From Bradyrhizobium sp. ORS 278 (GTDB taxonomy: Bacteria > Pseudomonadota > Alphaproteobacteria > Rhizobiales > Xanthobacteraceae), in NCBI RefSeq assembly GCF_000026145.1, contig NC_009445.1, forward strand, positions 5,734,501-5,798,500: DNA of 64,000 bases, read 5' to 3'. The translations under genes and the position numbers were made by a program. Below the pieces are notes generated by a model. That model did not search any database and had not been told where the DNA came from. It was given only the letters and a program-made list of their open reading frames with translations. How positions within the stretch are numbered: the first letter of the stretch is position 1; the number at the start of each line of letters is the position of its first letter. This document shows, piece after piece, positions 31,698 through 49,420 of the stretch.

Positions 31698-31818
31698 GCA
31701 GCACTCTAGGAGGACAAAATCCGGCCTGCCAAGATCGAACGGGCGGTTCCCCGCACCGGCCCACATTTTTGTCGCCGCCCGCGGCGTCTGGGCTCTGTGC
31801 ATCGGCCCGCGGGCGGCC

Positions 31819-31824
31819 TATATA
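31819..31824 (+). promoter_or_regulatory. Candidate -10 element of ssrA
   Basis: TATATA stands in an otherwise GC-rich region about 10 bases before the expected 5' end of the tmRNA precursor. No good -35 hexamer is seen at the right distance. Confidence 0.4.
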
Positions 31825-31829
31825 GGGGA

Positions 31830-32128
31830 CGCCGGCTTGCCGGCTATGGAAATAAATCGCCGTCGAAATAAACCATTCGGACCCGGGGGCGGTACCCGGC
31901 GCCTCCACCAAAGCCCGTCCCGTCGAGTGGCTGAGACGGGTTTTGGCGGGGGCGAAATAGGATCGACGAGGGCGTAAAGGGCGAGCTTTTTCCCGGTATT
32001 GTTCCGCCGTTATCGGGCTACTGCAATAGTTGCCAACGACAACTTTGCTCCGGTTGCTCAGGCTGCGTAACGCAGTTTGAAAGACCACCTTAAAGTCCTA
32101 ACGGGTTAAGCTCCGTTAGGCGGGGTTC
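31830..32128 (+). ncRNA. ssrA: Transfer-messenger RNA, circularly permuted two-piece alphaproteobacterial form
   Basis: tmRNA rescues stalled ribosomes and adds a degradation tag. The gene is permuted: the acceptor piece comes first, with a T-arm CCGGG-GGCGGTA-CCCGG and acceptor strand CGCCTCC followed by ACCA ending at 31910. An excised spacer (31911-31947) holds the hairpin CCCGTC...GACGGG. The coding piece starts at 31948 with GGGGGCGAAATAGGATCGAC, whose first seven bases pair with CGCCTCC. The tag frame at 32032-32070 reads ANDNFAPVAQAA and a TAA stop. A pseudoknot-type stem CCTAACGG/CCGTTAGG follows at 32097-32120. The two outer ends are approximate; the acceptor, spacer and tag positions are read directly. 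Confidence 0.92.
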
Positions 32129-32154
32129 GGAGGCACCTGGCAACAGAAGCCTCC
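32129..32154 (+). terminator. Hairpin at the 3' end of ssrA
   Basis: GGAGGC (32129-32134) pairs with GCCTCC (32149-32154) and is followed by ACTTTC. It may be the terminator or the last stem of the tmRNA precursor. Confidence 0.5.
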
Positions 32155-32424
32155 ACTTTCATCCGACGCGCCGGCACGACCGCTTCAGGGAGCCCTTCAT
32201 GGGAGCCGATCTCCCCAACTTTTTGATAGCCTCTCCCCGTTCATTCCTTCATTGACCCGACTTCCGTCGGCTTCTACCGGTTCCCATATCTCACATCGGC
32301 TTGGCTGCTGACCTCCGTGGCAAGCCGGAGTACGATGGGCCCGGATACGAGTCGCGGATGCTGCTGCCCGCGGCGCGGCATTCCGACGCGGGCGAAGCAC
32401 GGCCCACACGACACAGGACCGACC

Positions 32425-39337: not shown

Positions 39338-40906
39338 TCAGAAGCCCTTGAAGGGTGAGCCGAGCTGGTCGAACAGCCGGATGCGATCGAGCTGCGGCAC
39401 AGGTCCGACGCCCACCTTGTCGCCGAGGAACATCGTCGTCTCGGCCTTTGCATCGCTGCGCGGCCAGCTGGAGAGGCCGGGCGCGTTCGGGCTACCGGCA
39501 TAGGCATAGGCCACCCAGTAGGACTGCAGGGTGTTCGAGATCAGGCGGTCGGCGTCTGTCCAATCGCGGCTGAGCACATCGAGCGTGCCGAAGATGTAGG
39601 GATATTCGGAGCTGTGGAAGGTCCCGAGCCCCTCGGCGGTGTCGATCTCGTCATAGCTGACGCCCGCCTTGAGCGGCTGCTTGTGGTTGAAATGATAGAG
39701 GTAGGTCGGAAAGCCGTTCTTGGCGTGAAGCTGCGCAACGGCCCACGGGCCCCAGGCAAACAACGCATCGCGCACGATCGCCTTGTTGGCGTTCCTCGCT
39801 TCGTCGTCGGTGCTGGCAGGATACGATCGCAGCAACTGGTCGGCGATCTCGGGATATTTGCGGCGGACCCAGTCCTGATAGGCGGGCAGCGTCTTCGCAT
39901 GCGGGAAGGTCGTGCCCTCGTCGCTGTTCCAGCCGGTCAGCAGCGGCACCGGAGCCTCCTTGCCCTCAGCGAACACCGCGTAGGGATTGGCCGGCAGCGC
40001 GTAGCCGTCGACGATCGGGCTCATTCCGAGCTTGGTCTCGAGCAGCTGAGCGGCGGACAGCGCGCGCAATTTCGGCAGTGTGGGCGCGCCGGTCTTGTCA
40101 GCAAGCGCGACGCCGGCCTTCTCACCATCGACGAGGCTCGCCATTGTCTTGTTGGCGACGCCGAAGCTCTCGGCAATACCGCGGGCGAACAGTCCGCGCG
40201 CCAAAGGTGACGTGTAGAGGTAGCTGACCGCGGCCGCACCCGCGGATTGACCGAAGATCGTGACGTTGTCGGGATCGCCGCCGAACGTCGCGGCGTTGCG
40301 CTTGACCCAGTTCAGTCCCGCGACCAGATCAAGCAGACCGTAATTGCCCGAGGCACGCTGCGGCGACTCGGCCGTCAGCTCGGGATGCGCCATGAAGCCG
40401 AAGATGCCGACGCGATAGTTGACCGACACGACCACGACGCCGCGCCCCGCGAGCGCTGCGCCATCGAACACCGGATTGGCGGCCGAGCCCTGCTGGAAGC
40501 CGCCGCCATAGATCCACACCATCACCGGCAGCTTGCCATCCTTGACGTCGGACGGCGCCCAGACGTTGAGGAACAGGCAGTCCTCGCTGCTCGGCTGCTC
40601 GCCGGCATATTCGAAATACACCGAGGTCTTCGAGCGGCCGGGCTGCATGCATTGCGCGCCGTAGGCCGTGGCGGCGCGCGGCGTCTGCCATGCGGCGACC
40701 GGCTGCGGCGGCTTCCAGCGGAGATCACCGACGGGCGGCGCGGCAAAGGGAATGCCAAGGAAGGCCCGCACCGACGTGTTGCGCTGAAACTTGCCGCTGA
40801 TCGGACCGGCGTCGATCGTGACGTCCACGCCGGCAGCTTCAGCCGAAGCCGTCCATGCGCCCATCAGCATGGCCATGCAGGCCAGCCGCCAATTCATCCG
40901 CGTCAT
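39338..40906 (-). CDS. Type B carboxylesterase, exported
   Basis: A 522-residue alpha/beta hydrolase with a signal peptide (NWRLACMAMLMGAWTASAEA), so it acts in the periplasm or outside. The nucleophile elbow GQSAGA lies at about 215-220 in DPDNVTIFGQSAGAAAV; the oxyanion hole is YGGGFQQGS; the EDCLFLNVW motif is the family's second signature. The catalytic acid and His are expected in NSDEGT and FHSSEYPYIFG. GGGAGAAAAC stands before the ATG. It is the last gene of the shikimate-type operon, 46 bases after the dehydratase, and may release the imported acid from esters. Confidence 0.88.
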   Translation of the reverse strand: MTRMNWRLACMAMLMGAWTASAEAAGVDVTIDAGPISGKFQRNTSVRAFLGIPFAAPPVGDLRWKPPQPVAAWQTPRAATAYGAQCMQPGRSKTSVYFEYAGEQPSSEDCLFLNVWAPSDVKDGKLPVMVWIYGGGFQQGSAANPVFDGAALAGRGVVVVSVNYRVGIFGFMAHPELTAESPQRASGNYGLLDLVAGLNWVKRNAATFGGDPDNVTIFGQSAGAAAVSYLYTSPLARGLFARGIAESFGVANKTMASLVDGEKAGVALADKTGAPTLPKLRALSAAQLLETKLGMSPIVDGYALPANPYAVFAEGKEAPVPLLTGWNSDEGTTFPHAKTLPAYQDWVRRKYPEIADQLLRSYPASTDDEARNANKAIVRDALFAWGPWAVAQLHAKNGFPTYLYHFNHKQPLKAGVSYDEIDTAEGLGTFHSSEYPYIFGTLDVLSRDWTDADRLISNTLQSYWVAYAYAGSPNAPGLSSWPRSDAKAETTMFLGDKVGVGPVPQLDRIRLFDQLGSPFKGF

Positions 40907-40952
40907 GTTTTCTCCCGATGTTTTCTTGTTTTATCACTGAGCCCAGGGGCTT

Positions 40953-42824
40953 CTAAAGCCGCGGCATCGTATCCGGCCGGACCTCGCGTGCTTGCGCCGC
41001 GAGCCGGATCGCGGCATTGGGGGCGCCAAAACCCTGGTAGTTGCGGCGCTGGACGATCTCGAAGAAGAAGCGCTCCTCGAAGATGTGGGTGTAGACCTGG
41101 AAGAACTCGGCGTCGCCGTCGCGGTCGTAGAGGATCTCGTTGCCGCGGAGCGCGGCGATCGTCTCGGGCGCCAGATCGTATTTGGCTTCGAGATCGTCGT
41201 AGTAATTGTCGGGGATGTCGAGAAAGCCCGCCCCACGGGCGCGCATCTCGGCCACCGCTGCAAAGATGTCATCGCAGGAGAAGGCGATGTGCTGCACGCC
41301 GGAGCCGAAAAACTCCGAGATGAAGCGTGACGACAGCGTGCGCGTCGCCGTGGAGCCGTTGAGGATGAAGCGCAGGCTGCGATCGCCGTTGACGATCGCC
41401 TGGCTCTGCACGAGACCGCGTGGGTCGGCGATCTCCATCTGCGGCAGGCGCGAGAAGTCGATGATCCCGGCATAGAACAGCAGCCAGGACAGCATTTCCT
41501 CGTGCGGCATCGATTGCGCGATGTGATCGACGGCGAGGAGGCGATCGGCTGCCTTGTCGCTCGGGACAGCCTCGAAGTCGACGTCCCAATGGCGACCGTG
41601 GGTGTCGAGGAAATACAGCAGGCTGCCGCCGACGCCGTGGATCGCGGGAATCTCCAGTTCGCCCGGACCGACCGGCTGCGTGAACGTGCGTGTCTTCAAG
41701 GATTGCGCCCGGGCCATCGCGCGGTCGGCGCTGTCGACGTCCAACGCCAGCGCGCAGACACCGGGACCGTGCGTGACGTAATGCGAATGCGCGAAGCTCG
41801 CCGGCTCACAATTGATCACCAGCTCGATCGCGCCTTGCGACCAGCGCTGCACCGCCTTGCTACGATGCCGCCCGGTGTTGCGGAAGCCGAGTTGGCTGAA
41901 CAACGTCGCAAGCGATTCCGCTTTGTCCTCGCTGACGGCGAATTCGACGAAGCCGATGCCGTGGCTTCTCACGCGCGGCTCGAAGCGTGCGGCGGACGAT
42001 GCCGGAATCTTCCCGGCAAGATCGTCCTGCAGCAGCAGCAGCGAGCGCATGCCATCGAGCGCGGTGCGCGGTGCCGAGCCGGCGCGGAACTGGTCGTTGA
42101 AGATCTCCAGCGACAGCGGCCCGGAATAGCCGGTCGCGGCGACCGCCTCCATGAAGTCGCCCACGGGCAGGTCGCCCTGCCCCGGGAAGCTGCGGAAATG
42201 CCGGCTCCAGGACAGCACGTCCAGCTCGAGCTTGGGCGCGTCGGCCAACTGCACCAGGAAGATCTTGTCGGCGGGAATGGCGCGGATCGCATTGGTCGGC
42301 AGCGACGGGGCCAGCGCATGGAAGCTGTCGAGGATGACGCCGATCGCCTTGTGATCGGCGCGGCGCACGATCTCCCACGCATCGCGATAGTCGTGGACGT
42401 GGCGGCCCCAGGCCAGCGCCTCGTAGCCGACGCGCAGGCCGCGCTTGGCGGCGCGCTCGCCGAGCTCATGGAAATCTGCGGCGGCGCGATCGATGCCGCC
42501 GAGCGACAGCGGCGAAACGTTGCTGCAGATCAGCAGCAGATCGGTGCCGAGCTCCTGCATCAGGTCGAACTTGCGCTCGGCGCGGATAAAGTTGCGGGCG
42601 CGCTGCGGCTCCGGCATGCCCTCGAAATCGCGGAACGGCTGATAGGCGCAGATCGCGAGCCCGAGGTCGCGGCACATCTGCCCGATCTCCCGCGGCCGCA
42701 TCCCGAACGCGACGAGATCGTTTTCGAAGATCTCGACCAGTTCGAAGCCGGCCGCGGCGATCGCCTTGAGCTTCTCGTCGAGGGCACCTGAGATGGAGAC
42801 CGTTGCGATCGAGCGCTGGTTCAT
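40953..42824 (-). CDS. 3-Dehydroshikimate dehydratase fused to a 4-hydroxyphenylpyruvate dioxygenase-like domain
   Basis: A 623-residue two-domain protein of the QsuB/QuiC1 type. Residues about 1-270 form an AP-endonuclease-2/xylose isomerase TIM barrel (TVSISGALDEKLKAIAAAGF, GYEALAWGRHVHDYRDAWEI, KIFLVQLADAP, PLSLEIFNDQF) with metal-binding Glu and His. Residues about 290-610 form a vicinal-oxygen-chelate domain ending FFFEIVQRRNYQGFGAPN, the HPPD signature. The barrel would convert 3-dehydroshikimate to protocatechuate; the second domain is usually thought structural. Its start overlaps the livF-type gene by 4 bases. The neighbouring shikimate dehydrogenase and transporter support this role. 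Confidence 0.88.
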   Translation of the reverse strand: MNQRSIATVSISGALDEKLKAIAAAGFELVEIFENDLVAFGMRPREIGQMCRDLGLAICAYQPFRDFEGMPEPQRARNFIRAERKFDLMQELGTDLLLICSNVSPLSLGGIDRAAADFHELGERAAKRGLRVGYEALAWGRHVHDYRDAWEIVRRADHKAIGVILDSFHALAPSLPTNAIRAIPADKIFLVQLADAPKLELDVLSWSRHFRSFPGQGDLPVGDFMEAVAATGYSGPLSLEIFNDQFRAGSAPRTALDGMRSLLLLQDDLAGKIPASSAARFEPRVRSHGIGFVEFAVSEDKAESLATLFSQLGFRNTGRHRSKAVQRWSQGAIELVINCEPASFAHSHYVTHGPGVCALALDVDSADRAMARAQSLKTRTFTQPVGPGELEIPAIHGVGGSLLYFLDTHGRHWDVDFEAVPSDKAADRLLAVDHIAQSMPHEEMLSWLLFYAGIIDFSRLPQMEIADPRGLVQSQAIVNGDRSLRFILNGSTATRTLSSRFISEFFGSGVQHIAFSCDDIFAAVAEMRARGAGFLDIPDNYYDDLEAKYDLAPETIAALRGNEILYDRDGDAEFFQVYTHIFEERFFFEIVQRRNYQGFGAPNAAIRLAAQAREVRPDTMPRL

Positions 42825-43558
42825 GCCGCCGTCTCCTCCATCGCGCCGCCCAGGAACAGCTGTCCGATGCGCGGATCGGCCAGCACGCGATCAGCCTTGT
42901 CGACGATCCGGGTGCGGCCGAGCTCCAGGACGATGCCGTAGTCGGAGATCTCCAAAGCCGAGCGCGCGTTCTGCTCGATCAGCAGCACCGACACGCCCTT
43001 GTCGCGCAGCTGCTTCAGCATGTCGAAGGTCTGCTGCACCATCAGCGGCGACAGCCCGATCGAAGGCTCGTCGATCAGCACGAGCTGCGGCTCCAGCAAG
43101 AGACCGCGCGCGATCTCGAGCTGCTTCTGCTCGCCGCCCGACAGTGTCGAGGCCTGCCGATCCGCCTTCTTGCGCAGCACCGGAAACACGTCGAGCGCCG
43201 CCTCGACCCGAGCCGGCAGATCGATGTTGGCCGGCGCGGCCACGCCGCCGAGCTCGATGTTGTGGCGCACCGACAGCTCGCCGAAGATGTTGCGGCCCTG
43301 CGGAATGTAGCAGATGCCGGCGCCGAGCAGCGCGCGCTGGCTGAGGCCCGTGACATCACGGCCCTTGAATACGACCTTGCCTTCGCGGAGCTTGAGAAGC
43401 CCGAAGATCGCCTTGAACACGGTCGACTTGCCGGCGCCGTTCGGACCGATGACGGTGGTGATCGATCCCTTCGGCACCGAAAAGGTCGTGCCGTTCAGGA
43501 TCGTCATCTTGCCGTAGCCGCCGACCAGGTTCTGGACATCGAGAATGGGTTCGCTCAC
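42821..43558 (-). CDS. Branched-chain amino acid-type ABC transporter ATPase (LivF-like)
   Basis: A 245-residue ATPase. Walker A is GPNGAGKST (about 33-41), signature LSGGEQKQLEIARGLL, Walker B LVLIDEPSIGLSP, the LivF form. The GTG start has GGAGG 5 bases upstream, whereas the open frame extends antisense-like further upstream. It lies 11 bases after the LivG-like gene and overlaps the dehydratase gene, placing transport and catabolism in one transcript. Confidence 0.93.
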   Translation of the reverse strand: MSEPILDVQNLVGGYGKMTILNGTTFSVPKGSITTVIGPNGAGKSTVFKAIFGLLKLREGKVVFKGRDVTGLSQRALLGAGICYIPQGRNIFGELSVRHNIELGGVAAPANIDLPARVEAALDVFPVLRKKADRQASTLSGGEQKQLEIARGLLLEPQLVLIDEPSIGLSPLMVQQTFDMLKQLRDKGVSVLLIEQNARSALEISDYGIVLELGRTRIVDKADRVLADPRIGQLFLGGAMEETAA

Positions 43559-43569
43559 GGCCGCCTCCG

Positions 43570-44313
43570 TCAGTGTCCGAGATAGGCTTCGACCACGGCC
43601 GGATTGGCCCTGATCTCGTCCGGCTTGCCGATCGCCAAGACCTTGCCTTCCGCCATGACCATGACGCGCGAGCACAGCGACATCACGAACTCCATGTTGT
43701 GCTCGATCACGACGAAGGTGGCGCGACGCTCGCGGTTGATCGCGATCAGCCGCTCCTTGAGGTCGCCCAGCATGGTCGGATTGACGCCGCCTGCGGGCTC
43801 GTCGAGCAGCACCAGCCGCGGGCCGCCCATGAACGCCATGGCGGCATCCAGCAGCTTCTGCTGGCCGTAGGACAGGCCGCCGGCCGGCTCGTTGGCGAGA
43901 TGCTCCAGCTTGAAGAAGCCGATCATCTGATCGGCGGTTTCGGTGAGGCCCGCATCGGACGGACCGAACAGGCGCGACAGCATGCTGCCGCGATGCTCCT
44001 GTCCGGCGAGGATCAGATTGTCGCGCACCGAGAGTTTCGGAAATACCTGCAGCAGCTGGAAGGTGCGGCTGACGCCGAGCCGGTTGAGCTCCGCCGGCCG
44101 CTGTCCGGTGACGAGCTTGCCATCGACCCGCACTTCACCCGCACTCGGTACGAGCTGGCCGAGGATGCAGTTGAACAAGGTCGACTTGCCGCAGCCGTTG
44201 GGCCCGATCAGGCCGAGGATCTCGCCCTCCTGCACGTCGAAGCTGACGCCGTCGACGGCGGTGATGCCGCCGAAGCTCTTCTTGACGTCGCGGACATCGA
44301 GCACTGCGGTCAT
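43570..44313 (-). CDS. Branched-chain amino acid-type ABC transporter ATPase (LivG-like)
   Basis: A 247-residue ATPase. It has Walker A GPNGCGKST, the LivG-type LGVSRTFQLLQVFPKLSVRDNLILA, signature LSYGQQKLLDAAMAFM (YGQQ in place of GGQ, usual in this group), and Walker B LVLLDEPAGGVNP. The long open frame upstream is antisense to its true reading and is not translated; the start at 44313 overlaps the permease stop by 4 bases. Confidence 0.93.
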   Translation of the reverse strand: MTAVLDVRDVKKSFGGITAVDGVSFDVQEGEILGLIGPNGCGKSTLFNCILGQLVPSAGEVRVDGKLVTGQRPAELNRLGVSRTFQLLQVFPKLSVRDNLILAGQEHRGSMLSRLFGPSDAGLTETADQMIGFFKLEHLANEPAGGLSYGQQKLLDAAMAFMGGPRLVLLDEPAGGVNPTMLGDLKERLIAINRERRATFVVIEHNMEFVMSLCSRVMVMAEGKVLAIGKPDEIRANPAVVEAYLGH

Positions 44314-45308
44314 TGCGCGGTCTCCAGCTTGGATTGCGCCGCTGCGCGCAACGCGGACGCCGCCTGTGTCCGGCGTGAGCTGAGATAACGATCGAGGATG
44401 CCGAGAATGCCGGTCGGCGAGTAGATCAGCAGCGCGATGACCGCGATCGCATAGAGCATCAGATAGTAACCCTCGGCCACGCGCAGCCATTCCGGCAGCA
44501 GCACCGCGATCATCGCCCCGAGGAATGGTCCGAGCATGAAGCCGGCCCCGCCGACGATCACCATCATCAAGAGATCGAGCGAGAGCTGCAGGTTGAACGG
44601 GACGGGATCGACATATTGCGTGAGCGGCGCATAGAGCACGCCGGCGATGCCGCCGAGCACAGAGCCGATCGCGAAGGCCATCAAGGTGTAGCGGCGGGTG
44701 TCGATGCCGAGCGACTGCGCGCGGATTGGATTCTCGCGCAGCGCCATGAAGGCGCGGCCCCAGGGCGAGCGGATCAGCCACCACATCGCAAGCGTCACCA
44801 GCGCGAGCGAGCCGAGGCAGAGGTAGTAGAACGGCAGTGGCTTGCGGGTCGGAAAGCCAAAGACCTCGGGACGCGGGATGTTGCTGATGCCATAGATGCC
44901 GTTGGTCAGCCAGGTCTCGTTGCGGAACACCAGGAACATCAGGGTCGAGAACGCTAGCGTCACGAAAGCGAGATAGTGATGCTGCACGCGCAGCGCCGGA
45001 TAACCGAGCAGCCAGCCGACGATGAAGCAGATCACGATGACGAGCCCGAGGGCCGCGATCAGCGGCCAGCCGTGGGTGGTCAGGATGGCGGCGCCATACG
45101 CACCCATGCCGACGAAGGCGCCCTGCGCCAGCGACACCTGGCCGGCATAGCCGAGCGTCAAATTGAGCCCCATCGCGGCGATGGTCATGACAGCCCATTG
45201 GCTCAAGATGTACAGGCCATAGCGGTTGAAGTTCATCGGGATGATGATCAGGCCGGCAATGACGACGACCGCCAGCGCGGCGAGGAGCAGTCTGCTATGC
45301 TTGCTCAT
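44310..45308 (-). CDS. Branched-chain amino acid-type ABC transporter permease (LivM-like)
   Basis: A 332-residue integral membrane protein with eight to ten spans. LivM hallmarks are LNLTLGYAGQVSLAQGAFVGMGAY, PALRVQHHYLAFVTLAF and the cytoplasmic coupling segment GRAFMALRENPIRAQSLGID. The C-terminal 25 residues are basic and cytoplasmic. Start and stop overlap both neighbours by 4 bases, so the permeases and ATPases are made in step. Confidence 0.93.
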   Translation of the reverse strand: MSKHSRLLLAALAVVVIAGLIIIPMNFNRYGLYILSQWAVMTIAAMGLNLTLGYAGQVSLAQGAFVGMGAYGAAILTTHGWPLIAALGLVIVICFIVGWLLGYPALRVQHHYLAFVTLAFSTLMFLVFRNETWLTNGIYGISNIPRPEVFGFPTRKPLPFYYLCLGSLALVTLAMWWLIRSPWGRAFMALRENPIRAQSLGIDTRRYTLMAFAIGSVLGGIAGVLYAPLTQYVDPVPFNLQLSLDLLMMVIVGGAGFMLGPFLGAMIAVLLPEWLRVAEGYYLMLYAIAVIALLIYSPTGILGILDRYLSSRRTQAASALRAAAQSKLETAQ

Positions 45309-46180
45309 ACCGTGCGCTCCTCGGCCCGACCGAGCAGGCCCTGCGGCCGGAACAGGATGACCAGGATCAGCAGAACCATCGGAACGGCGGCGCGATACTG
45401 CGTGGAGACATAGGCGGCGGCGAGGTTGTCGACGACGCCGATCAGCAGACCGCCGGCGATGGCGCCGCGCACCTGGTTGAAGCCGCCGACGATCGCAGCG
45501 ATGAAGGCTGCCTGCCCGAGCACCTCGCCGCTGGAGAATTTTGCCAGATAGATCGGCGTGATCAGCAGCGAGGCCAGCGCGACCAGCACGGCGTTGATCA
45601 GGAAGGTCAGCAGGATCATGCGCTCGACGGGCACGCCGATGATGCGCGCCACCGTCGGGTTCTGCGCCGCCGCCTGCATCTGGTGGCCGAGCGAGGTGCG
45701 GTTCAACAGCATGGTCAGCCCGACGACGGCCAGGATCGCAACCGCGAGCACGCCGAGGCTCTGCAGCGAAATGGTCCGACCGAGGATCGACACATCGCCG
45801 ACCGGAACGATCGACGGGAACGGCGACGCCTCGGCGCTGAAGAACTGCTTCACCGCCTCCTTGATGCCGATCGCCAGCGCCATGGTGGCGATCGCCAGCG
45901 GCAGCACGCCGTGCCGCAACATCGGATCGACCAGCAGCAGCTTGAAGGCGAGACCGAGCAGCAGCGCCGACAGCAGCACGCCGACGAGCACTGCGAGCCA
46001 GAACGGCGCACCAAGATGCATGACGGCAAGCATCAGGAAGGCCGGCAGCATCACGAACTCGCCCTGGGCGAAGTTGATGGTCTGCGAGGTCTGCCACAGC
46101 AGCGTGAAGCCGACGGCAACGAGCGCATAGATGGCGCCGGTGGCGAGCCCCGCCACGATCAGGTCGAGCAGATTGGACAT
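45305..46180 (-). CDS. Branched-chain amino acid-type ABC transporter permease (LivH-like)
   Basis: A 291-residue permease with about eight spans. It shows the LivH start LLDLIVAGLATGAIYALVAVG and the loop GHQMQAAAQNPTVARIIGV, which docks on the ATPase. GGGGAAACG lies just before the ATG. It pairs with the LivM-like protein to form the channel. A 74-base gap separates it from the binding-protein gene. Confidence 0.93.
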   Translation of the reverse strand: MSNLLDLIVAGLATGAIYALVAVGFTLLWQTSQTINFAQGEFVMLPAFLMLAVMHLGAPFWLAVLVGVLLSALLLGLAFKLLLVDPMLRHGVLPLAIATMALAIGIKEAVKQFFSAEASPFPSIVPVGDVSILGRTISLQSLGVLAVAILAVVGLTMLLNRTSLGHQMQAAAQNPTVARIIGVPVERMILLTFLINAVLVALASLLITPIYLAKFSSGEVLGQAAFIAAIVGGFNQVRGAIAGGLLIGVVDNLAAAYVSTQYRAAVPMVLLILVILFRPQGLLGRAEERTV

Positions 46181-46254
46181 CGTTTCCCCGTGAGCCCTTG
46201 GGTGACGGCGACGCTGGACAGTCCCCCTCCAGCGCCGCAGATCGACCGGTCTCG

Positions 46255-47394
46255 TTAGTTCAGCTTTGGCAGCACCTGCTTGACGACCTGCTTGCCTTCG
46301 ACGACCTCGACCAGGAAGCCCTGGCGATCGATGTCGCCGTTCTGGTCGAAGGTGACATCCATCAGGATGTTCGGCTCGGCCGAGGTCTTGATGGTGAAGC
46401 CGTGCAATGCATCGGCAAAGCCCTTGGAATCGACCTTGCCCATTTTCTCGGTCGTGGCCTTGACCATGTAGATGGCGAGGTAGCCCTTCAGGCCGTTATG
46501 GTCGGGCACGTAGTTGTACTTCTTCACGAAGCGGTCGCGGAACGCCTTGATAGCCTCGACCGGCGCATCGGTCGTGAGGCCGACGTGGCCGCGGGCGCCG
46601 TTGGCGGCATCGCCGGCGAGTTCGATCACCTTCTGGCCGACCAGCGTGGTCTCGCCGATCAGCGGCGCGGTCACGCCCTGGCGCTTGATCTCTTTCAGGA
46701 TGCGCGCGCTCTCTTCCTCGTTGACGTAGATGAAGACGGCATCAGGTGCCGCCGCCTTGATCTTGCTGACGTCGGCGGCGAAGTCCGCCTGGCCCGCTTC
46801 GGTCGAGAGGTCCGCGGCGACCTTGATGCCGAGACGGTTGAACTCCTTGGTGATGACGTCGCGCCCGCCGCGGCCGAAATCGTTGTTGACCCAGACCACC
46901 GCGACCGACTTCGCCTTCAGCTCATCGTTGATGTACTTGGCGACCTTCGGCATCGAGGACTGCTGGCCGAACGAAGTGCGGAACAGGAACTTGTTGCCGG
47001 CCTGCGTCAGCTCGGCCGCCTCGCCGCCCATGATCTGGGTGATGCCGGCTTCAGCGGCCAGCGGCGCGGTCACCTTCACCGAGCCGGAATAGCCCGGCCC
47101 GAGCAGCACGTAGGGCTCGCTGTCGAGCGCTTTCTGCACCTGCGCGCGGGCGACGCCGGGGTTCGACTGCGAGTCGGCGTGGCTGACCTCGATCTTGCGG
47201 CCGAGGATGCCGCCCTTGGCGTTGATTTCCTCGACGGCGAGGTCGATGCCGTTCTTCCAGTTGGTACCGACGGTCGCGCCGCCGCCGGAAAGCTCGGCGA
47301 CGTTTGCGATCTTGATGGGGGCGCCGGATTGCGCGTAGGCGGCTCCTGACAGCAGTACGGCGGAGCACAGTCCGGCCAGGATGATCGATCTCAC
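46255..47394 (-). CDS. Periplasmic binding protein of the Leu/Ile/Val-type ABC transporter
   Basis: A 379-residue type I periplasmic binding protein. The signal peptide (IILAGLCSAVLLSGAAYA) is cleaved near residue 21. The core has IKIANVAELSGGGATVG, LLGPGYSGSVKVTAPLAAEAGI and a second lobe with AVVWVNNDFGRGGRD. The GTG start has GAGGAGGAAACAAC before it. Family members of this group bind amino acids but also aromatic and alicyclic acids. Its operon partners suggest shikimate, quinate or dehydroshikimate as ligand; this is inference from context. Confidence 0.9.
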   Translation of the reverse strand: MRSIILAGLCSAVLLSGAAYAQSGAPIKIANVAELSGGGATVGTNWKNGIDLAVEEINAKGGILGRKIEVSHADSQSNPGVARAQVQKALDSEPYVLLGPGYSGSVKVTAPLAAEAGITQIMGGEAAELTQAGNKFLFRTSFGQQSSMPKVAKYINDELKAKSVAVVWVNNDFGRGGRDVITKEFNRLGIKVAADLSTEAGQADFAADVSKIKAAAPDAVFIYVNEEESARILKEIKRQGVTAPLIGETTLVGQKVIELAGDAANGARGHVGLTTDAPVEAIKAFRDRFVKKYNYVPDHNGLKGYLAIYMVKATTEKMGKVDSKGFADALHGFTIKTSAEPNILMDVTFDQNGDIDRQGFLVEVVEGKQVVKQVLPKLN

Positions 47395-47414
47395 GTTGTT
47401 TCCTCCTCTGCTCT

Positions 47415-47432
47415 AAACGCTTGTTTGCGTTT
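47415..47432. promoter_or_regulatory. Inverted repeat upstream of the binding-protein gene
   Basis: AAACGC-TTGTTT-GCGTTT is a perfect inverted repeat 21 bases upstream of the GTG. It is a candidate operator or leader hairpin for the transporter genes. Confidence 0.5.
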
Positions 47433-47473
47433 CTTGCTTGAACGATGTGTTCCGCCGCGTATTGGCGGTCGGC

Positions 47474-48355
47474 TCAGGCGGCGTCAACCGCCTGATATCT
47501 CTCCGCCATGTGATTGTCGAACGCCGCGCCCATCGCTTCGGTCGACGGCGCAAGTCCGGTGAACAGCTCGAAAGCATCGGCAGCCTGATAGATCGCGAGC
47601 TCGCGCCCGAGCAGGACTTGAGCCCCTCTGGCCTTCGCCGCCTTCAGCAGCGGCGTCCAAAGCGGCGAGTAGACGGCGTCAGCGACCCAGAGATCGTCGC
47701 GCAGCAGATGATCCGCAACCGGCGTGCCGCGGTTCGGCAGCATGCCAATTGGTGTTCCATTGACGACGCCGACTGCGCCCTGGAGCGCGCTTTCGACGCT
47801 GTCGACCACATTAACCGTTGTGCCGGCCCTCACCAGCTTCGCGAGCTTCTCGGCACGCGCCCGCTCGATGTCATAGATGCGCAGCCCAGCGACTTCGAGG
47901 TTCGCAAGTGCGAAGGCGATCGCCTTGCCAACTCCGCCAGCCCCGATCAGCGCCACCACGCCGCGGCCGCTCTGGCCGACGAGCGGCGCCACCGCGCGTT
48001 CGAACCCGGTCGTATCGGTGTTGTGGCCGATCAGCCGGCCGTCGCGCACGACGACGGTATTGACCGCGCCCATCGCCGCCGCCTTCGGCGCGAGCTCGTC
48101 GAGCAGTTCGACGACGGCTTCCTTGTAGGGATAGGTCACATTGACGCCGGCGAAGCCCAGCCGACGCACGCCTTCGAGCAGCATCGACAGGCCCGCGCGG
48201 TCGGCGCCGGCGACCTCGATCAGCTGGTAGTGGCAGCGCAGACCGAGCGCAGCCGCAGCATGCTCGTGCATGGCTGGAGAGGCCGAATGCGCGATCGGGG
48301 CACCGATCAAGCCGGTCAGGAATTTGCGGGCTTTGAGCGCGGAAAGGTCAGGCAC
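47474..48355 (-). CDS. aroE: Shikimate dehydrogenase (catabolic-type AroE paralogue)
   Basis: A 293-residue NAD(P)-dependent dehydrogenase interconverting shikimate and 3-dehydroshikimate. The substrate site has IAHSASPAMHEHA, the catalytic lysine is in NVTYPYKEAVVE, and NTDTTGFERA supplies the acid. The cofactor motif is ALIGAGGVGKAIAF. The aspartate after the second strand (IYDIERARAEKL) rather than a basic patch suggests NAD over NADP. It lies between a LysR gene and the transporter genes, so a catabolic role is more likely than the biosynthetic one. The GTG start has only a weak Shine-Dalgarno. Confidence 0.9.
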   Translation of the reverse strand: MPDLSALKARKFLTGLIGAPIAHSASPAMHEHAAAALGLRCHYQLIEVAGADRAGLSMLLEGVRRLGFAGVNVTYPYKEAVVELLDELAPKAAAMGAVNTVVVRDGRLIGHNTDTTGFERAVAPLVGQSGRGVVALIGAGGVGKAIAFALANLEVAGLRIYDIERARAEKLAKLVRAGTTVNVVDSVESALQGAVGVVNGTPIGMLPNRGTPVADHLLRDDLWVADAVYSPLWTPLLKAAKARGAQVLLGRELAIYQAADAFELFTGLAPSTEAMGAAFDNHMAERYQAVDAA

Positions 48356-48436
48356 GTTCGCTTCAGTCTCTGCTGCCGCCTCGCGCGATCGCCGCACGAG
48401 CGATGGATGTCGGCGGGGACGATAGCGCGTCCCACG

Positions 48437-48481
48437 CCTAACACAATTACCCAAATATCCGCCGAACCTAACATCATGTTA
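48437..48481. promoter_or_regulatory. Repeated elements between the LysR and shikimate dehydrogenase genes
   Basis: CCTAACA occurs at 48437-48443 and 48467-48473, exactly 30 bases apart (about three helical turns). The second copy is part of the palindrome TAACAT-C-ATGTTA (48469-48481), which overlaps the LysR stop codon. These are plausible contacts for the adjacent regulator. Confidence 0.5.
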
Positions 48482-49420
48482 TCTTTTGCCACTGGTTGCT
48501 TTCGCGGGTCTCGGGCTCTGACGCCGGCCCGGCTCGAGCGGGCGCATCTCCGTCCGCAGGCACTCGATGAAGTGTTCGGCATAGAGAGACAGCGGAGTGC
48601 CGCGCTTGACCGCGATGTAGGTGTCGAACCGCGTCGGCTCCGCGATCTTGATCAGCTCGATGCCGGGATAGCCGCCGTGTGCGACGGTGAACTGGTCGAT
48701 GACGGCGATGCCGAGCCCGGCTTTCACGAGCGCGCACACGGTGGTGCCGAAGCGCGCCTTGATCGAAATGTTGTAGCTCAGTTTGTTGCGCGAAAAGATC
48801 TCCGCCATGATGCGGCCGTAAGGGTCATTCGGGTCGATGCCGATCAGCGGATAGCGCGTCATCTCTGCCGCCGAGACCTGCTTGCGTCCCGCCAGTTCAT
48901 GGCCAGGCGGCACGATGCAGTACAATTCGCCCGAGGCGAGCGGCATGAATTCGAGACCGGAATGATCGAGCCGATAGCTCATCGCCACGCACTCGCCCTT
49001 GCCCAGCATCAGATAGTCGATCGCCTCCTCGATCTTGAGAATGTTGATGTCGATGCCGAGATCGGGATAGCGGCGGCGGACGCGCTCGATCGCGCGCGGC
49101 ACCATCACCTGGGAGATGCTCGGCACCGAGCCGACGCGCAGCTCTGACAGCGCGCCGCGGCCGATGTTGGAGATGATGTAGCTGAGATCGTCGACCTTCT
49201 CGTAGACGCTGTTGATCTGCTCGAAGATGTTCTGTGCTTCGGGCGTCGGGAAGTAGCGGCCGTTCTGGCGCTGGAAGAAGCGGATGCCGAGCGAGCGCTC
49301 GGTGTATTTCACCAGGCGGCTCACGCCGGGTGCCGAGACCTTCAAGAGCCGCGCGGCGCCGTTGATGGTGCCGGTCACCATGACCGCGCGAATGACCTCG
49401 ACCTGTCGCAGCGTCATCAT
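48479..49420 (-). CDS. LysR-family transcriptional regulator of the shikimate-type operon
   Basis: A 313-residue LysR protein. The winged helix-turn-helix is at about 3-60 (VEVIRAVMVTGTINGAARLLKVSAPGVSRLVK split across helices), and an effector domain follows from about 92 (LRVGSVPSISQVMVPRAI). The C-terminus is basic. It is codirectional with the dehydrogenase gene 123 bases downstream, whereas most LysR genes are divergent from their targets. It probably responds to an intermediate such as dehydroshikimate or protocatechuate; that is inferred. Confidence 0.88.
   Translation of the reverse strand: MMTLRQVEVIRAVMVTGTINGAARLLKVSAPGVSRLVKYTERSLGIRFFQRQNGRYFPTPEAQNIFEQINSVYEKVDDLSYIISNIGRGALSELRVGSVPSISQVMVPRAIERVRRRYPDLGIDINILKIEEAIDYLMLGKGECVAMSYRLDHSGLEFMPLASGELYCIVPPGHELAGRKQVSAAEMTRYPLIGIDPNDPYGRIMAEIFSRNKLSYNISIKARFGTTVCALVKAGLGIAVIDQFTVAHGGYPGIELIKIAEPTRFDTYIAVKRGTPLSLYAEHFIECLRTEMRPLEPGRRQSPRPAKATSGKR

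Follow-up and report, generated by a model that had tools for sequence, protein, structure and literature searches.

The photosynthetic soil bacterium Bradyrhizobium sp. ORS 278 is predicted to carry a shikimate-utilisation operon with its own ATP-binding cassette (ABC) importer of the Liv type, a reading to which we give a probability of about 0.72. The operon lies in a stretch of 64,000 nucleotides (C1:5734501–5798500 of a single-contig genome of 7,456,587 bases), hereafter called the window. Between positions 39338 and 49420, the minus strand carries nine genes, which encode a LysR-type regulator, an AroE-type shikimate dehydrogenase, a periplasmic binding protein, LivH, LivM, LivG, and LivF, a QuiC-type 3-dehydroshikimate dehydratase, and a carboxylesterase. 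A preliminary description of this DNA had listed the same nine genes on one strand; all are present, and domain scans back their families. At the sequence level, the gene families, their conserved order, and operator-like sites are evident, as are lig genes elsewhere in the genome and a housekeeping aroE apart from the operon copy.

In the proposed route, the periplasmic protein (46255–47394) would capture extracellular shikimate, which LivH-M-G-F would then bring into the cell at the expense of ATP. The AroE paralogue would then oxidise it to 3-dehydroshikimate, probably with NAD+ (the oxidised nicotinamide adenine dinucleotide), and QuiC would dehydrate this compound to protocatechuate, which may be opened by 4,5-cleavage through LigAB encoded elsewhere. 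LysR, responding to a pathway compound, would switch the operon on from a T-N11-A operator at 48469–48481. In this scheme we infer which ligand is bound, in which direction and with which cofactor AroE works, and what the inducer is.

Gene order supports this reading. In the closest 80 QuiC loci, kept from more than 80 existing ones, the set LysR-AroE-binding protein-LivH-M-G-F-QuiC is complete, collinear, and confined to one strand in 52; a chance arrangement is excluded because the same eight genes recur in this way. The closest named QuiC relatives, with 95–96% identity, are those of Bradyrhizobium SRS-191, B. aeschynomenes, and BTAi1. When an ABC locus is defined by the presence near QuiC of two or more genes from this ABC family with an identity of at least 50%, 57 of the 80 qualify. 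Five of them are without the full set: in four the contig ends within the operon region (L033, L035, L039, and L068), and L066 has no detected AroE. The AroE of L058, a 60% identity match, was missed by the coverage filter of one scan, and the open reading frames called in related loci have over-long or short starts in places. Among the remaining 23 loci, ten have only a tripartite ATP-independent periplasmic (TRAP) transporter (L069, L071–L073, L075, L078, L080, and L082–L084), two a major facilitator superfamily (MFS) gene (L047 and L057), and two a different Liv-type ABC transporter (L079 and L081). One has lost the ABC genes and has another Liv-type ABC nearby (L036), and no transporter was found in eight, several of which are cut short (L041–L043, L067, L070, L074, L076, and L077).

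The slot between LivF and QuiC is variable. A Gfo/Idh/MocA dehydrogenase resembling inositol dehydrogenase occupies it in 21 of the 57 ABC loci (e.g., L009:8946–10004) and lies downstream of QuiC in one further ABC locus; the window does not have it. An SMP-30/gluconolactonase gene fills this slot in two plasmids of Rhizobium (L139 and L143). The Gfo/Idh/MocA gene perhaps allows a compound related to shikimate to enter the pathway by an additional step.

The association also holds when the binding protein is used as the starting point. In 119 genomes of the host family, scanned with the binding protein at E 1e-90 and QuiC at E 1e-150, the two were found in 19 and 31 genomes, respectively. QuiC is present in 18 of the 19 genomes with the binding protein versus 13 of the 100 without it (Fisher 4e-12, ancestry not corrected), and the two genes are at most 5 kb apart in 14 of the 18 genomes holding both. 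Ten more loci fetched by the binding protein (L108–L117) include AroE in seven, QuiC in three, and AroQ in none. A plasmid search with the binding protein alone (E 1e-60) returned 14 records at 41–56% identity, five of them near-identical Sinorhizobium sequences. AroE lies nearby in 12 of these, QuiC in eight, and AroQ in none, and LysR is upstream in eight. The two plasmid loci without AroE are from Paracoccus (L140, beside pcaGHCD) and Massilia (L142, near genes annotated as QuiC-like and a ShiA-like MFS gene, 44%). In the latter (L142:1–9125), the 41% relative of the binding protein has no adjoining permease genes, and a porin gene is also nearby. AroE lies near 59 of the 63 relatives of the binding protein with at least 50% identity. 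This steadiest partner speaks for a shikimate importer, because only an importer of shikimate or quinate needs AroE.

Gene families were assigned with NCBIfam and Pfam profiles, backed by PDB sequence searches in the case of AroE, QuiC, and the binding protein. One Peripla_BP_6 protein, two BPD_transp_2 permeases, and two ABC ATPases in one operon constitute a Liv-type ABC importer. Three of the four junctions from LivH to QuiC are four-base overlaps of the ATGA type (LivH/LivM at 45305–45308, LivM/LivG at 44310–44313, and LivF/QuiC at 42821–42824). The ATGA couplings named in the preliminary description are present at these sites, including LivF/QuiC; at LivG/LivF, 11 bases separate the genes. 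The other gaps measure 123 bases (LysR-AroE, with the GTG at 48355 as the AroE start), 79 bases (AroE-binding protein), 74 bases (binding protein-LivH), and 46 bases (QuiC-esterase).

Operons controlled by LysR-type proteins carry a T-N11-A palindrome upstream of their target genes, and one such element precedes AroE here. The sequence TAACATGATGTTA is a perfect palindrome that has no other match in the window, where the expected number is 0. In the genome, TAACA-N3-TGTTA occurs at four places (the reversed pattern at one), and only the site at 48469–48481 reads TAACAT-N-ATGTTA. Exact TAACA-N3-TGTTA follows LysR in 42 of 60 regions, in 41 at the same position; 42 is an undercount, since the regions of a few loci (such as L049 and some from Bosea) begin inside or behind the operator. 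A second element, TAA-N2-GTGTTA, is found in 45 of the 60 regions, and its spacing from the operator is 31 in all 40 regions with both. Permuted palindromes, used as a control, gave no match in any of the 60 regions. TAAC-N5-GTTA is present in all eight plasmid loci with LysR (56–61%) directly upstream, and the predicted operator is kept from Bradyrhizobium to the plasmids of Rhizobium and Sinorhizobium. Because it is also kept in five plasmid loci where the binding protein directly follows LysR, it is very probable that the transport genes themselves are under the control of this regulator.

Features of the predicted shikimate operon and its neighbour (window positions)
Feature	Position	Strand	Remark
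LysR-type regulator	48479..49420	-	HTH_1 and LysR_substrate domains
Predicted LysR operator TAACATGATGTTA, T-N11-A palindrome	48469..48481	-	overlaps LysR stop codon
Second conserved element TAATTGTGTTA	48439..48449	-	centre 31 bases from operator centre
AroE-type shikimate dehydrogenase, predicted NAD-type	47474..48355	-	GTG start; in-frame TTG at 48454
Liv-type periplasmic binding protein, predicted shikimate binder	46255..47394	-	Peripla_BP_6, 202.6 bits
LivH-type permease	45305..46180	-	BPD_transp_2, 122.1 bits
LivM-type permease	44310..45308	-	BPD_transp_2, 162.3 bits
LivG-type ATPase	43570..44313	-	ABC_tran and BCA_ABC_TP_C
LivF-type ATPase	42821..43558	-	ABC_tran; 4-base overlap with QuiC start
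QuiC/QsuB-type 3-dehydroshikimate dehydratase, TIM barrel and HPPD-like domain	40953..42824	-	PDB 5hmq, 638 bits
Exported carboxylesterase, neighbour	39338..40906	-	COesterase, 369 bits

The window AroE belongs to the AroE family, with 433 bits for NF001319 (cut-off 252) and 209.2 bits for TIGR00507 (cut-off 200.2), and its best PDB match is the quinate/shikimate dehydrogenase of Corynebacterium glutamicum (PDB 3jyo). It is one of four AroE-type genes in the host genome. Another, at C1:6182819–6183658, has orthologues (72–76%) in all 12 other Bradyrhizobium genomes sampled and a match at E 1e-40 in 20 of 21 genomes overall, and is likely the housekeeping enzyme. Conservation of orthologues was used for this assignment because the gene neighbours are uninformative; gene context was rejected as proof, the neighbours being DUF1275 and a protein without a Pfam match. 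The window aroE is therefore not the only copy, and the biosynthetic aroE that the preliminary description had proposed to look for is likely this one. At the cofactor site, an acidic residue where other enzymes have the NRT motif is taken here to mark a catabolic, NAD-type shikimate dehydrogenase, NRT presumably being the motif of the phosphorylated cofactor, NADP. AroE rows near QuiC or the ABC genes have Asp there; of all 78 rows aligned, 73 have Asp and five Asn, and the window enzyme is predicted to be NAD-type. The five Asn rows represent three genes, namely the host copies at 2.50 and 6.18 Mb (NRT) and one of genome G064 (L114). Both the 2.50 Mb and the L114 AroE adjoin a second binding protein; this pair differs from that of the window because an NRT-type AroE stands beside it. 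A further motif reads SxS in the window AroE, SxT in four Microvirga TRAP loci and three Bosea ABC loci (L062–L064), and SxA in others. Since SxT occurs in both TRAP and ABC loci, SxS/SxT was rejected as a clean marker of quinate.

The second binding protein belongs to the same family (60%; L108:6402–9300, G000:C1 ~2.496–2.499 Mb) and has no adjoining permease genes. It adjoins an amidohydrolase and the NRT-type AroE, convergent with a lig cluster, and the same trio occurs in G064 (L114). A fourth, diverged AroE-like gene (31%; L121:6826–8873, G000:C1 ~1.025–1.027 Mb) directly follows another Peripla_BP_6 protein, and Liv-type ABC genes in divergent orientation lie alongside. The host genome thus has three places where an AroE-like gene meets a Liv-type binding protein.

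QuiC aligns with PDB 5hmq over residues 3–613 of 623 (638 bits). The residues that we take to be the metal ligands of QuiC/QsuB dehydratases, i.e., Glu, Asp, Gln, and Glu, are identical in this alignment (Glu135, Asp166, Gln192, and Glu240), and together with the fusion of a TIM barrel and an HPPD-like domain they assign the enzyme to the QuiC/QsuB type. Its score of 719 bits for NF042435 (QuiC), below the equivalog cut-off of 1200, makes it a relative and not a called equivalog. As for its product, no protocatechuate 3,4-dioxygenase beta subunit was found above the cut-off in the genome (best 67.5 bits, cut-off 296.4). Three LigA matches exceed their cut-off, and one of them clusters with LigB (NF009903, 598 bits), a LigC-like dehydrogenase, an RraA-like protein, and amidohydrolases. 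Since lig genes are encoded in the genome, the QuiC product could be opened by 4,5-cleavage.

The binding protein, which has matches at 14 places in the host genome at E 1e-10, was modelled with a pLDDT (predicted local distance difference test) of 87.5. The amino-acid contacts of LivJ/LivK are presumably Ser79, Thr102, Tyr150, Tyr202, and Glu226. In the alignment, only Ser79 is kept (Ser103), and Tyr150, Tyr202, and Glu226 are replaced by Phe173, Asn225, and Thr249, respectively; the contact residues are therefore not those of a branched-chain amino acid importer. Different alignments place the contacts differently, LivK Thr102 corresponding to Ala126 in one and to Glu125 in another, and the adjacent Glu248 might in principle take over the role of Glu226. 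Ser103, Glu125, Asn225, and Thr249 are among the residues predicted to line the pocket. Six host paralogues were included in the contact alignment; L104 yielded no match, and L101 retains the amino-acid pattern, with Asp for Glu226. In the fold comparison, the nearest folds include leucine-binding proteins and aromatic-acid binders (PDB 4evq, 4evs, and 4ey3), two classes that it does not separate.

Quinate breakdown needs a dehydroquinase (AroQ), whereas shikimate breakdown does not. AroQ lies near none of the 57 ABC loci and none of the 14 plasmid loci, which therefore do not have the make-up of quinate catabolic clusters, and near nine of the ten TRAP-only loci and the MFS locus L057 (0/57 versus 9/10, Fisher 2e-10, ancestry ignored). 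The Sinorhizobium TRAP clusters L137 and L145 hold both AroE and AroQ. We infer that L145 is the S. meliloti system SMb20034–SMb20037. In that system, the TRAP binding protein is SMb20036, encoded next to an AroE; its published affinity is 5.9 nM for D-quinic acid and about 1e-4 M for shikimic acid (PMC3454389). Because the ABC loci are without dehydroquinase, the TRAP loci have it, and the published TRAP binder is quinate-specific, the substrate of the importer is predicted to be shikimate rather than quinate. An importer that takes quinate, or quinate and shikimate alike, is unlikely; AroE would then yield 3-dehydroquinate, which the lone genomic dehydroquinase would convert into 3-dehydroshikimate for QuiC. 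This would agree with the C. glutamicum enzyme being the nearest solved AroE relative, with a single type II dehydroquinase encoded away from the operon, with one pyrroloquinoline quinone (PQQ) dehydrogenase of the glucose/quinate/shikimate family above its cut-off, and with the three Bosea ABC loci whose AroE has SxT, as in the C. glutamicum enzyme. Yet the window AroE has SxS, and both the dehydroquinase counts and the nanomolar quinate binding beside AroE in Sinorhizobium point the other way. The preliminary description had spoken of a shikimate/quinate operon; the route from shikimate to protocatechuate with its own Liv-type ABC importer is retained, with the substrate narrowed to mainly shikimate.

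PcaMNVWX of Sinorhizobium (S. meliloti/S. medicae) is a Liv-type ABC importer that feeds the protocatechuate pathway, and we know of no linkage between it and AroE or QuiC. It seems quite unlikely that the window importer, like such systems of other bacteria, takes protocatechuate, the product of QuiC, or a related hydroxybenzoate. The close fold of the solved Liv-type hydroxybenzoate binders, the pca genes adjoining the ABC genes of Paracoccus L140, and the position of the second binding protein next to the lig genes would suit this substrate, but AroE, of no use there, is near 59/63 and 12/14 loci, and even the binding protein on the lig side adjoins an AroE. In addition, PcaMNVWX is not among the 14 plasmid records matched at E 1e-60, nor does any S. 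meliloti or S. medicae record appear there. Uptake of 3-dehydroshikimate, formed outside the cell or in the periplasm by the PQQ dehydrogenase, is improbable. The translational coupling of QuiC to LivF and the presence of the PQQ gene are consistent with it; however, AroE would be left idle, and the family and PDB matches of the PQQ enzyme fit glucose or quinate/shikimate alike. Finally, an ordinary branched-chain amino acid importer, placed in the operon by accident, is highly improbable: the family models do name the transporter genes branched-chain amino acid transport, and leucine-binding proteins are among the nearest folds, but AroE and QuiC are linked to these genes across distant lineages, and the contact residues differ from those of paralogue L101.

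Related loci suggest that the transporter of this pathway is exchangeable. In Bradyrhizobium STM 3843 (L047), AroE (72%) directly precedes QuiC (78%), next to a divergent MFS gene. The best equivalog for this MFS protein is the shikimate transporter NF007414, with 316 bits and a cut-off of 538, and a broad metabolite/H+ symporter model gives 355 bits. The ABC transporter was probably replaced in this strain, because its QuiC sits within the ABC-bearing Bradyrhizobium clade (Shimodaira–Hasegawa-like approximate likelihood ratio, SH-aLRT, 99). Bradyrhizobium sp. Ghvi (L036:7636–11872) has kept LysR-AroE and QuiC, whereas the binding protein is gone and, of the ABC genes, little more than a C-terminal LivF remnant is left. 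On the QuiC tree, the ABC label undergoes six changes, at least five of them forced by well-supported branches, and the ABC-QuiC pairing was therefore made or lost several times. One record titled Frankia sp. RB7 (L034) has the operon with identities typical of Bradyrhizobium, and on the tree its QuiC falls among those of Bradyrhizobium; the record is probably mislabelled or contaminated.

Several points weigh against an importer dedicated to shikimate or limit the case for it. For STM 3843, the absence of ABC genes of this family holds for a locus of 17.5 kb, the rest of that genome not having been searched. L111–L113, from a single genus, have LysR and ABC genes with neither AroE nor QuiC nearby; L141, L146, L148, and L149 have AroE and no QuiC nearby; and Paracoccus L140, with neither, has its ABC genes beside pcaGHCD, which suits a protocatechuate importer. 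Five MFS genes of the host genome match the ShiA model below the cut-off (best 229.5 of 538 bits), and another shikimate uptake route through a ShiA-like MFS protein is possible in the host. Rhizobium leguminosarum is reported to import shikimate via an MFS protein (PMC3333776). Moreover, the related loci are not mutually independent, and the Fisher tests ignore ancestry.

The esterase had been counted as part of the unit. No counterpart was found near QuiC in the 80 loci, save one 30% match beside L047, and its candidacy as a core operon member was therefore rejected; the gene (39338–40906) probably belongs outside the conserved operon. Its best PDB match, a fumonisin B1 esterase (298 bits), does not reveal its substrate. 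This type-B carboxylesterase might act on plant esters and so release shikimate or quinate. Elsewhere, the window contains a transfer-messenger RNA gene (31815–32161) with the tag ANDNFAPVAQAA.

Beyond this operon, we lean, with some reserve, towards a Liv-type branch dedicated to shikimate in Bradyrhizobium, Bosea, Sinorhizobium, Rhizobium, and Paracoccus, together with a split in Alphaproteobacteria in which the Liv-type ABC importer serves shikimate and the TRAP system quinate, each with its own AroE and with dehydroquinase only in the TRAP set. Current annotations describe members of the proposed branch as general ABC transporters or as transporters of branched-chain amino acids. Liv-type family names say little about cargo, and if shikimate were firmly established as the substrate, a whole conserved branch would receive a new name. 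If correct, it would also provide a shikimate-sensing protein, explain shikimate scavenging by plant-associated bacteria, offer a case of an ABC importer and an MFS carrier replacing each other within one pathway, and make the division between shikimate and quinate directly testable with two binding proteins.

The qsu cluster of C. glutamicum comprises the MFS importer QsuA, QsuB, QsuC, QsuD, and the regulator QsuR, with dehydroquinase included. The window operon shares with it the enzymes from shikimate to protocatechuate and a LysR regulator, but the qsu importer is an MFS protein and its cluster has a dehydroquinase, which the 57 ABC loci do not. ShiA-type MFS proteins have the same predicted task, and a ShiA-like protein takes the place of the ABC genes in STM 3843; however, ShiA is a single-protein secondary carrier that uses neither ATP nor a binding protein and is unrelated to ABC importers. 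The preliminary description had named MFS proteins as the known importers, which is valid for these examples and incomplete in view of the published TRAP system. As far as the available text of PMC3454389 goes, that Sinorhizobium system (SMb20034–SMb20036, with AroE SMb20037) likewise pairs a binding-protein-dependent importer with AroE, yet it is of the TRAP type, binds quinate, and carries a dehydroquinase. Rhodopseudomonas RPA0668, RPA0985, and RPA1789, among others, are Liv-type binders with a close fold encoded beside ligand-degrading genes, but their ligands are benzoates or coumarates; the ligand library held shikimic and quinic acids, to which no aromatic binder is assigned in the accessible part of the source, and R. 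palustris is reported there not to grow on either acid (PMC3223731). Searches of the open-access literature yielded no title or abstract opening that names an ABC importer for shikimate. Collectively, the enzymes and the regulator of the window operon are of known kinds, and the predicted substrate of its importer is the new part.

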